IMG/VR virus record: IMGVR_UViG_3300037189_001796
Span: 1-41,193 of that record
Source: a virus
DNA length: 41,193 bases
Reading direction: 5' to 3' (one strand)
Shown one piece after another: positions 4,461 through 16,591 of the stretch. How positions within the stretch are numbered: the first letter of the stretch is position 1; every line of letters starts with the position of its first letter. A program made the position numbers and the translations under genes. The notes under the pieces are model-generated. The model made no database searches, was not told the origin of the DNA, and saw only the letters and a program-made list of their open reading frames with translations.

Positions 4461-4613
4461 GGTAGTGTTGCTGCACAAGCGAAGGGGAGCTGGAACGACA
4501 CCAGCCAAACCCTCGCTTCAGGCCTAGGCTTAAAGCCAACCGCCGCACGCTTTGAACCTTGACAACTGAATAAAAACCTTGTTCACTTGGCTTTATAGCT
4601 ACGACAACTAAAC

Positions 4614-4663
4614 GGTAGGCATCACTTATAGCGCGATGCTTGGGTTCAAAACCCTTGCCTACC
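4614..4663 (+). other. 50-nt tRNA-like three-way fold
   Basis: GGTAGGC (4614-4620) pairs perfectly with GCCTACC (4657-4663). Inside are GCATC/GATGC (4619-4623, 4635-4639) and a T-arm-like hairpin GGG-TTCAAAA-CCC (4642-4654). A closing 7-bp stem plus a TTCAAAA loop mimics tRNA acceptor and T arms, but 50 nt is too short for a tRNA, and no D arm or anticodon arm of normal size is present. It could be a leader fold for the gene at 4699 or a decayed tRNA. Confidence 0.4.
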
Positions 4664-4667
4664 TATT

Positions 4668-4693
4668 GCTTCCTAATGAGGGAAGCATTCTTT
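4668..4693 (+). terminator. Hairpin with T-rich tail before 4699
   Basis: GCTTCC (4668-4673) pairs with GGAAGC (4681-4686) around the 7-nt loop TAATGAG and is followed by ATTCTTT. It lies 5 nt after the tRNA-like fold and 12 nt before an ATG, so it may attenuate transcription into the first gene of the small-gene block. Confidence 0.45.
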
Positions 4694-4698
4694 AAACC

Positions 4699-4941
4699 AT
4701 GGCCACGCTTTACATTCCTGAGACTGTAAGCCTACGGTTTACATTGTCTGAAGAATGCCCCATTGAAGAATATTTAATGGATGGCATAGTTAGTGAGTAC
4801 TTTCCACAAGATGACGGCACTAATCAAGTAATTATCAAGGACGTAGATTTAGCGTTACTTGATAATCTAAACCCTGACGAGTTAGCTGAATTCTTTGGAC
4901 TCGATACCGAGTTTATCGAAGCGGTTGAATGTTTATCTTAA
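4699..4941 (+). CDS. Acidic hypothetical protein, 80 aa
   Basis: ATG 4699 to TAA 4939-4941. The protein is strongly acidic, with many Asp and Glu, including DVDLALLDNLNPDELAEFFG and a Glu-rich C-terminus. No domain is recognised. Small acidic proteins encoded early by T7-like phages often act as DNA mimics or inhibitors of host enzymes; that is only a suggestion from composition and position. It is preceded by the hairpin and tRNA-like leader at 4614-4693 and has no clear Shine-Dalgarno. Confidence 0.65.
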   Translation: MATLYIPETVSLRFTLSEECPIEEYLMDGIVSEYFPQDDGTNQVIIKDVDLALLDNLNPDELAEFFGLDTEFIEAVECLS

Positions 4942-14024: not shown

Positions 14025-14248
14025 CTAACCTCTCCCCCGCCGCGCAGGCAGTGCTGGATGCAGCAACAGCAGGTTTTTGGAAGTCGCCTTTTGACTCCGA
14101 AGGAAAGGGTGCTGCCGCCGCCCTTCGCGCCTTAGCTGAGTACCGCACCCCACATTGGGACGGAACTGGCCCAGCCTGTCACTGGCACCCAACTCCTTAC
14201 GTGCGTCGTGAACTCATCGCCATTGCCGCCGAGCTGGAGAACCAATGA
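14021..14248 (+). CDS. Hypothetical protein, 75 aa, GC-rich
   Basis: ATG 14021 overlaps the previous stop; TGA 14246-14248 overlaps the polymerase ATG. The pattern LSPAAQAVLDAATAG, AAALRALAEY and a final LIAIAAELENQ is one I recall from many small ORFs in cyanophages and cyanobacteria, of unknown function. Its base composition is visibly more GC-rich than the genes on either side, consistent with recent acquisition. A moron-type insertion between helicase and polymerase is a reasonable reading. Confidence 0.7.
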   Translation: MTNLSPAAQAVLDAATAGFWKSPFDSEGKGAAAALRALAEYRTPHWDGTGPACHWHPTPYVRRELIAIAAELENQ

Positions 14249-14814
14249 ACCTAATCTTTGACCTAGAAACTGACGGTCTTTACGATGATGTTACCTGTAT
14301 CCACTGTATCTGCATCCATGACCTTGATGCTAAACAAACCATTGTCTTTAATGATACTGGTAGTGAGCAGCCTGTGGTTAAGGGTGTCCAGATGTTGGAA
14401 GATGCCAGTCATTTGATTGGTCATAACATCATCAGTTACGACATTCCTGTAGTACGTAAACTATTTCCTTGGTTCAATACAGATGCAACTCTTCTAGACA
14501 CCCTAGTCCTGTCACGTATCTATCACGCTGACCGGCTGGCTGAAGACCATCTACATAAACCAAAGAAGTGGCCCAATCTTCCATTGCAATTATTTGGCAG
14601 GCATTCACTTGAATCCTATGGCTACCGCCTAGGTGAATACAAGGGTTCCTTTGGTAAGACTACCGATTGGAAAGAGTGGAGCCAAGAGATGGAGGATTAC
14701 TGCTTGCAAGATGTGCAAGTTACAACAAAGTTATGGTACCACTTTCTTACAAAGATAAACTTAGAAAATCAAAAGAGCGGAACAAGAAAAACTTTGACGC
14801 CAACAAGTTGTTAG
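14245..14814 (+). CDS. DNA polymerase, 3'-5' exonuclease part (T7 gp5-like, split)
   Basis: 189 residues corresponding to the proofreading domain of T7 DNA polymerase. FDLETDG holds the metal-binding Asp6 and Glu8; LIGHNIISYDIPVVRK is the exo II-like segment; and DYCLQDVQVTTKLW carries the exo III Asp near 156. Homology ends at about YHFLTKI; the last 20 or so residues (LENQKSGTRKTL and beyond) are read from the inserted DNA. The polymerase domain resumes as a separate ORF at 15016 in the same frame. The HNH ORF overlaps this gene from 14733. The product probably assembles with the downstream subunit, or an unseen processing event joins them. Confidence 0.9.
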   Translation: MNLIFDLETDGLYDDVTCIHCICIHDLDAKQTIVFNDTGSEQPVVKGVQMLEDASHLIGHNIISYDIPVVRKLFPWFNTDATLLDTLVLSRIYHADRLAEDHLHKPKKWPNLPLQLFGRHSLESYGYRLGEYKGSFGKTTDWKEWSQEMEDYCLQDVQVTTKLWYHFLTKINLENQKSGTRKTLTPTSC

Positions 14815-15056
14815 TTGACGCGTTTAAGCTTGAGAAAGGTTGCGCCAAGTGTGGGTATAAGGATCACCCATCAGCATTAGATTTTAACCATTTAAATCCT
14901 GAGGATAAGTCAGCAGATGTTTCCACTCGTCTCCAACAGTGGTGCTGGGCTCGCTTAAAGCAGGAAATTGATAAATGTGAAATCTTGTGTGCCAACTGCC
15001 ACCGAATCTACAGCTATGAAAATCACTATACCCGATTGGGTACAACTGGAACATGA
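14733..15056 (+). CDS. HNH endonuclease inserted in the DNA polymerase gene
   Basis: A 107-residue protein in a third frame, starting at ATG 14733 within the exonuclease ORF and ending at TGA 15054-15056 within the polymerase ORF. It has a basic N-terminus (YKDKLRKSKERNKK), then an HNH domain with CAKCGYKDHPSALDFNHLNP and, further on, CEILCANCHRIYSYENH; two CxxC pairs bind structural zinc and the central His residues form the active site. Its small size fits phage homing endonucleases. The foreign segment between the homologous polymerase parts is only about 260 bp, too short for a group I intron with its own core. Confidence 0.88.
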   Translation: MVPLSYKDKLRKSKERNKKNFDANKLLVDAFKLEKGCAKCGYKDHPSALDFNHLNPEDKSADVSTRLQQWCWARLKQEIDKCEILCANCHRIYSYENHYTRLGTTGT

Positions 15057-16278
15057 CGTTGCAACCATTCTAACTGACCAAGAACTATATGGATGGAGCT
15101 TTGATGAAAGAGCTGCATGGGAACTTGAATCAACTCTCCGAAGAGAGCTTGAAACACTTACTCAATTACTTCGCGGAAGGCATCCTTACGTTGCAGGGTC
15201 ATCGTTTAATCCAAAGCGACCTAACAAGACACAGGGGTACTTCACAGGGTGTGAGTCAACACGGCTGAAGGAATTAAACCCTTCATCCCGCGATCACATC
15301 GCCTGGATCTTTCAAACATTTTATGACTGGACACCCACTGAATTCACAGACAAAGGCAAAGCATCAATCGACGAAACAGTCCTCAAGGAAATTGGAACCC
15401 CAATTGCCCTTCAGTTCTTCAGGGTACTTGAACTCACGAAACAGCTTGGACTCCTCAGTGAAGGTATCAATGGCTGGCTCAAACTTGTACGCGATGGTCG
15501 GATCCACCACAACTGTAGTGTCGCCACTGCCACGCACAGATGTGCCCACCGTAAGCCCAACCTTGCCCAAGTTCCAGCAGAACAAGAGTTCCGAAAGCTA
15601 TTCACCGCATCACCAGGACGACAAATGGTCGGGGCTGACCTTGCTGGGATTGAGCTGCGGATGCTTGCTCACTACTTGGCTCGTTTTGATGGGGGTCGTT
15701 ATGCCGACATCCTTCTCAACGACGACATCCACCAAGTCAATGCAGACAAGATTGGCATCTCCCGTAGGGCCGTAAAGACTGTTACTTATGCATTTCTGTA
15801 TGGAGCTGGTGATGAAAAGATTGGGTTATCCTTCGATCCCTTGCTTCCCAAGAACAAGGCAAGAAAAAGGGGTAAGGAGATTCGTCAAGCGTTTATGGAT
15901 GCTATCGACGGTCTGGAGACCCTAGTTACCAAGGTAAAAGAGAAGGCAGCTGGTGGGTACATCAATGCTATTGATGGTCGAAAGATCAGCGTAGATGGTA
16001 CCCATAAGGCTCTGAACTACTTACTGCAATCCAGTGCTGGTGTTATTGCCAAGCGTTGGATGGTAGAGGCTCACGAGACTATCCATTCAACAAAGATTAA
16101 TGCACGACAACTAGCATTCGTGCATGACGAATTGCAGTTTGAAACTAAATCTGAATATGTAGATGACCTTAAATTCGCATTGCTTCATGCAGCTAAGTCT
16201 GCTGGAGAGTATTACCAATGTAGGATCCCAATCGAAGCAGACGCTAAGTCTGGGATCAATTGGGCAGAAGTGCATTAA
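15016..16278 (+). CDS. DNA polymerase, polymerase part (family A, T7 gp5-like, split)
   Basis: 420 residues with the complete family A polymerase domain. Motif A is GADLAGIELRMLAHYLARFD near residue 207; motif B is RAVKTVTYAFLYGAGDEKIG near 250; motif C is FVHDELQFE near 370; and the C-terminus SGINWAEVH matches the T7 end. The chosen start is ATG 15016, directly at the point where similarity to the polymerase returns (IPDWVQLEHDVATIL). No other ATG in frame precedes the conserved region. With the 14245 ORF it makes about 600 residues against 704 in T7. The start lies inside the HNH ORF, so its translation probably depends on re-initiation. Confidence 0.93.
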   Translation: MKITIPDWVQLEHDVATILTDQELYGWSFDERAAWELESTLRRELETLTQLLRGRHPYVAGSSFNPKRPNKTQGYFTGCESTRLKELNPSSRDHIAWIFQTFYDWTPTEFTDKGKASIDETVLKEIGTPIALQFFRVLELTKQLGLLSEGINGWLKLVRDGRIHHNCSVATATHRCAHRKPNLAQVPAEQEFRKLFTASPGRQMVGADLAGIELRMLAHYLARFDGGRYADILLNDDIHQVNADKIGISRRAVKTVTYAFLYGAGDEKIGLSFDPLLPKNKARKRGKEIRQAFMDAIDGLETLVTKVKEKAAGGYINAIDGRKISVDGTHKALNYLLQSSAGVIAKRWMVEAHETIHSTKINARQLAFVHDELQFETKSEYVDDLKFALLHAAKSAGEYYQCRIPIEADAKSGINWAEVH

Positions 16279-16591
16279 GTGTTCAGAGGTCAAGCCTATC
16301 ACTTGTTTTGATCTTTACCAAACAGGTGGAGGTTTAAGAAATACATGCCGAATATGTCGTTCGGAAATGAGTAGATTACGCCATAGGCTACGTAAACTTA
16401 ACCCACCACCACTGGCTAGCTCTTGTCCAATCTGCCAAAAGCATACTGAGGTCTGGATCTTGGATCACTGCCACACAACTGATTCATTTCGTGGTTACAT
16501 CTGCGATAGATGCAACCGTGGCCTGGGATGCTTTGGTGATGATTACACAACACTTGAAAAAGCACTACACTATCTATCCACTAAACACTAA
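16187..16591 (+). CDS. Endonuclease VII-like HNH nuclease
   Basis: The C-terminal half shows the recombination endonuclease VII signature: CPICQKHTEVWILDHCHTTD then RGYICDRCNRGLGCFGDD, with two CxxC pairs and a DHCH catalytic centre. The N-terminal part has a further zinc-like cluster (CIKCSEVKP, then CRICR). The start is uncertain: ATG 16187 overlaps the polymerase by 92 nt; ATG 16163 gives 142 residues; the recognisable protein begins only at about 16260, with no good start codon there. T4 endo VII cleaves branched DNA; many phage relatives are homing enzymes, and this one abuts the polymerase gene. The stop overlaps the next ATG. Confidence 0.82.
   Translation: MQLSLLESITNVGSQSKQTLSLGSIGQKCIKCSEVKPITCFDLYQTGGGLRNTCRICRSEMSRLRHRLRKLNPPPLASSCPICQKHTEVWILDHCHTTDSFRGYICDRCNRGLGCFGDDYTTLEKALHYLSTKH

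Follow-up and report, generated by a model that had tools for sequence, protein, structure and literature searches.

A homing-type HNH gene at the seam of an already split, T7-like DNA polymerase in cyanophages

The window analysed here is a stretch of 41,193 nucleotides of viral DNA (IMG/VR record IMGVR_UViG_3300037189_001796). Its DNA polymerase locus consists of three open reading frames (ORFs), all on the plus strand. The first (ATG 14245 to TAG 14814, 189 aa, frame 1) encodes the 3'-5' exonuclease subunit of a T7-like family A DNA polymerase and the last (ATG 15016 to TAA 16278, 420 aa, frame 1) encodes the polymerase subunit. An HNH endonuclease ORF of the homing type (ATG 14733 to TGA 15056, 107 aa, frame 0) lies between them. 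An earlier note on this DNA had given exactly these coordinates and had described a homing-type HNH gene between two polymerase parts that share frame 1 but are separated by stops. This description holds, and four in-frame stops, at 14812, 14878, 14893 and 14956, separate the exonuclease and polymerase ORFs. Alignment to L010, a relative that has an empty seam and a polymerase 92% identical to that of the window, places the inserted DNA at 14747 to 15023, with ends good to a few bases. The net insertion is 277 bp, and the note's figure of about 260 bp of foreign DNA was therefore right in rough size only. The locus is not the misassembly that the note had considered, as L009, from a different metagenome, is arranged in the same way.

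Both subunits are recognised by homology. The exonuclease matches phrog_17 (E 3e-28) and RNase_H_2 (E 3e-8), and the polymerase matches DNA_pol_A (E 1e-39) and phrog_15971 (E 2e-135). By alignment, the seam is positioned between the exonuclease and polymerase domains, because exonuclease residues 3-164 align with residues 2-182 of T7 DNA polymerase and polymerase residues 72-420 align with T7 311-698 (residues 9-50 align weakly with T7 208-250). The T7-type catalytic motifs are present in both translations: DLE, the D in ISYD and QDV in the exonuclease, and the D in GADLAG, the O-helix R/K/Y and HDE in the polymerase. Domain homology and catalytic motifs thus place the enzyme among the T7-like family A polymerases, but it is encoded by two ORFs and not as one continuous polypeptide. 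The thioredoxin-binding loop of the thumb was not found in the polymerase subunit, where residues 50-72 span T7 250-311 (about 20 residues vs about 60), a stretch that we take to hold most of this loop.

The HNH ORF is a real gene: it matches phrog_3106 (E 4e-27) and has a dN/dS of about 0.13-0.15 against its homologues, with few changes in one pair and saturated dS in the other. The match to Pfam HNH (E 4e-4) is just below the Pfam cut-off. CxxC, DFNH and CANCH are kept in all five seam HNH proteins that were aligned. The protein is short, with no clear separate DNA-binding domain, and its predicted structure is of low confidence (pLDDT 56). The HNH profile found no credible relative in the PDB, and NCBIfam gave no name for the exonuclease or for the HNH. 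A scan of IMG/VR proteins for HNH relatives found only that of L009 to be close; the others were distant and came from contigs with no recognised exonuclease/polymerase pair.

The HNH ORF starts at the old start codon of the polymerase gene. This ancestral ATG (14733 to 14735, plus strand), within AAGTTATGG, is now codon 1 of the HNH ORF, and the insertion follows about 14 nt after it, in frame. The polymerase ORF begins at a new ATG (15016 to 15018, plus strand, T-ATG-AA) that lies across the HNH Tyr-Glu codons (TAT GAA). The last residues of the HNH are polymerase DNA read in another frame, and the C-terminal 20 or so codons of the exonuclease are read from the DNA of the insert. The N-terminus of the polymerase is nearly kept (MKITIPDW in the window vs MELFPTIPDW in L010). 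The exonuclease and polymerase share a frame because the old start gives the HNH the -1 frame and the new ATG stands at +1 relative to the HNH frame. As read from these frames, the shared frame of the halves results from the positions of the two start codons and is not the trace of a once continuous ORF in this phage. A Shine-Dalgarno sequence was not found before the new polymerase ATG, so translation from this codon is presumed.

Three polymerase scans of IMG/VR and phage records gave 175 distinct seams, from T7-like cyanophages of the P-SSP7/S-TIP37/S-CBP3 group and from IMG/VR contigs. All of the distinct HNH-free relatives (167/167) have two overlapping ORFs, and in each the polymerase frame is -1 to that of the exonuclease. 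The exonuclease-to-polymerase offset in these empty seams is -10 in 157, -7 in 8 and +29 in 2, and the overlap is 40 nt in 146 of the 167. Two empty seams (L064:2974-3007 and L084:2974-3007) have a linker that is 39 nt longer and keep the -1 frame relation. Overlapping exonuclease and polymerase ORFs are annotated in P-SSP7, S-TIP37, DSL-LC07 and S-SRP01, and the GenBank notes for P-SSP7 (PSSP7_017A/017B) and S-TIP37 (17A/17B) describe a split variant or a programmed frameshift. A 2012 paper states that proteomics confirmed a "putative frameshift or split variant" for this gene (PMC3350473). In the sister clade (Syn5, P60, S-CBP2, SS120-1 and S-TIP28) the polymerase gene is a single ORF. Two amplicon records with a continuous ORF, EF535233 (L004, from S-CBP3) and EF535232 (L266, from S-CBP1), were not accepted as showing a fused gene, as each has one C more than the genome record of the same phage; EF535233 is the one further record among the 175 seams. 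The extra C at the seam probably arose in sequencing or editing and masks the split.

The HNH is present at the seam in seven sequences (the window, L009, L047, L090, L046, L091 and L095). Six contigs were returned by DNA patterns written for the HNH/polymerase junction, and relaxing the pattern added none; the junction was not found in bacterial or archaeal genome contigs. The seven occupied sites belong to five clades and stand against 167 empty ones, which is a presence/absence polymorphism at one precise site. In all seven the old ATG now opens the HNH ORF, and the new one falls at Tyr-Glu codons in six and at Tyr-Asp codons in L095. L091 and L095 retain the original C-terminus and stop of the exonuclease. 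In L046 the HNH (L046:2733-3026) is frameshifted, with a zinc-finger-like N-terminus of 38 aa read from the old start and the HNH part following in a different frame, and the polymerase ORF is intact. About 1.2 kb downstream of its polymerase, L091 has a second, free-standing member of this HNH family whose N-terminus is zinc-finger-like (L091:7882-8217, minus strand), and L185 has an HNH similar to it (4548-4793).

A polymerase tree from which the 30 residues that follow the seam were left out separates the HNH-bearing sequences. Well supported branches force five changes of the HNH label, gain and loss not being told apart, and an origin of the HNH-bearing sequences in one clade is rejected (AU p 2e-5). 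The window and L009 group with the empty L010, L047 with the empty L088 (97% identical polymerase), L095 with the empty L102 (90%) and L046 with the empty L076 and L230. The nearest relatives of L091 are also empty but more distant, so that near empty relatives are found in four of the five clades. Over 60 nt on either side of the seam, three close pairs of HNH-bearing and empty sequences, two of which share L010, differ by 22-32%, vs about 6-8% (maximum 15%) in 194 empty/empty pairs of like distance. This raised divergence, in three close pairs with L010 used twice, looks like the co-conversion that accompanies homing. Exchange between lineages is suggested by L009 and L047, because the first 30 nt of their HNH ORFs are identical although the next 30 nt have 6 mismatches and the flanks have 14 in 60 on each side. 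What looks like a mosaic segment lies further upstream in the exonuclease (14530-14600, 150-210 nt before the seam), where the window differs strongly from L009 and L010 and both sides are similar.

The earlier note had held that the HNH did the splitting. By that account the insertion divided a continuous polymerase gene, which would make this a case of genes in pieces as known from Aeh1 (nrdA/mobE). Two complete halves do flank the HNH, and there are precedents (PMC2988022), but a gene in pieces is continuous in its empty-site relatives, and here every HNH-free relative, including L010 and L088, has the -1 split at this seam already. A split made by the HNH is refuted for this lineage, unless all of the empty sites are scars of older insertions, and we regard it as very improbable. 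It is less probable still, to the point of being hardly credible, that the insert is a removable group I intron or an intein whose excision restores one polymerase. The polymerase gene of Pf-WMP3 does contain a group IA2 intron with an HNH (PMC3428280), but that intron sits elsewhere, in the fingers subdomain. Rfam gave no match in the window at gathering scores and nothing credible in 14600-15200 at E up to 10 with lax filters. The 277-bp insert is entirely HNH coding, which supports the note's view that a group I intron core has no room beside it, and neither a core RNA nor an excision that restores the frame was found; removal of the insert gives the empty-site layout, which is itself a -1 split. 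An intein requires one open frame fused to both host parts, and the HNH is in frame 0 with its own stop while the host parts are in frame 1. Decay of the locus, with the polymerase inactivated or another polymerase used, is likewise very doubtful. Some cyanopodoviruses are reported to have no recognisable DNA polymerase gene (PMC9860041), but both subunits here are full length with T7-type catalytic motifs and the layout recurs in five clades with intact polymerase ORFs.

A programmed -1 frameshift that fuses the polymerase across the clade, with the HNH-bearing phages as exceptions or broken, is unlikely for other reasons. The GenBank notes for P-SSP7 and S-TIP37 and the 2012 paper (PMC3350473) allow it, and the -1 frame relation is strictly kept, but a strict frame is equally expected from an internal start. 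A canonical -1 slippery heptamer (X XXY YYZ) was found in the overlap of none of the 167 empty-site relatives; non-canonical slippage falls outside this search. A start codon, by contrast, is kept at one spot: a single fixed position is ATG (101) or TTG (66) in all 167 empty seams. This start shares bases with a conserved Leu codon in the exonuclease ORF, and that codon has A or T as its third base in all 162 sequences compared, vs 45-66% in eight other conserved Leu columns where all four bases are used; the sequences are related and the counts are not independent, and the contrast is drawn within the same sequences. In the occupied seams the exonuclease-to-polymerase offsets include 267, 279 and 396, all divisible by 3. 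Because most offsets are of this kind and stops intervene, a -1 slip has no way of joining the two halves in these phages. In five clades, phages with the HNH retain an intact polymerase ORF in the same layout although fusion is barred, which argues for two polypeptides, and not a fusion, in the whole group. The working two-piece polymerase of the earlier note is upheld in so far as it means two separate polypeptides, but not in its likeness to enzymes that were split by a homing endonuclease.

The reading that we favour, with a probability of roughly 0.85, is that a homing HNH gene entered the seam of an already split polymerase, took over the old start codon and supplied a new one, and that the subunits are separate and associate. 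The polymerase of this group, as the sequences show, has long been encoded as two overlapping genes: the exonuclease gene comes first, and the polymerase follows in the -1 frame from an internal start codon, ATG or TTG, shortly before the exonuclease gene ends. The HNH gene inserted in frame just past this start and took it over, and the polymerase start moved to the ATG inside the conserved C-terminal Tyr-Glu codons of the HNH. Most probably the HNH cleaves empty alleles at their seam and is then copied into them together with short tracts of flanking DNA. Translation would proceed from the two starts, and the exonuclease and polymerase proteins would then assemble.

Several known systems resemble parts of this arrangement. 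The split polymerase of P-SSP7 and S-TIP37 involves the same gene, the same exonuclease/polymerase seam and the same 40-nt overlap in -1, but there the two ORFs are in different frames with no seam HNH, whereas the window has an HNH and a shared frame. In Aeromonas phage 25 (43A/seg43/43B) a homing endonuclease is likewise associated with a split replicative polymerase gene, and it has been proposed that the endonuclease may have invaded an already split gene (PMC2988022). That polymerase is of B type, in a T4-like phage, with a GIY-YIG endonuclease (seg), while the window has a family A polymerase, a T7-like phage and an HNH. A prior split is unsettled for phage 25, but it is clear here from the many empty-site relatives, and here the start codon is taken over as well. 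The 43A and 43B proteins co-purify and are active (PMC2988022), and phage 25 gene 43 thus shows that assembly of separately made subunits is possible. In Aeh1 (nrdA-a/mobE/nrdA-b) an HNH-type homing endonuclease lies between the pieces of ribonucleotide reductase (PMC2988022). As in the window, an HNH-type gene separates two pieces of an essential enzyme, but in Aeh1 the insertion made the split and in the window the split is older. Pf-WMP3 also has an HNH homing endonuclease in the DNA polymerase gene of a T7-like cyanophage. This enzyme, I-PfoP3I, is a 161-aa HNH in a 672-bp self-splicing group IA2 intron at Pro363/Asn364 (PMC3428280), in contrast to the window, which has no intron and a different site.

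The hosts of clade B cyanopodoviruses are among the most abundant photosynthetic cells on Earth. GenBank notes and the literature have left it undecided whether the polymerase of these viruses is made by frameshifting or as two proteins. The phages with an HNH provide a natural experiment on this question, as their halves are intact though a -1 slip cannot fuse them; this speaks for two proteins and opens the question to testing. The same phages illustrate how a homing gene may find its way into an essential gene cluster, by borrowing one start codon and supplying another. No homing gene that swaps the start codon of its host gene repeatedly at one site was found in the open-licence literature. 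A broader proposal, to which we give slightly less than an even chance, is that this HNH family recurrently invades just after the start of an essential gene and swaps in its own Tyr-Glu ATG, that the pre-split seam is a safe landing site used repeatedly, and that the -1 split may be the scar of an earlier invader. If this is true, a host gene invaded by start-codon swap loses neither its frame nor its N-terminus.

The 3' end of the polymerase gene is, judging from the ORFs found there, a second nuclease spot around this gene. In the window an Endonuclease VII-like ORF (16163-16591, Pfam PF02945, E 4e-12) overlaps the polymerase 3' end by at most 116 nt. L010 has a PDDEXK_5-like ORF instead at the same place (L010:4139-4552), and endonucleases are likewise found at the polymerase 3' end in SS120-1 and NATL2A-133.
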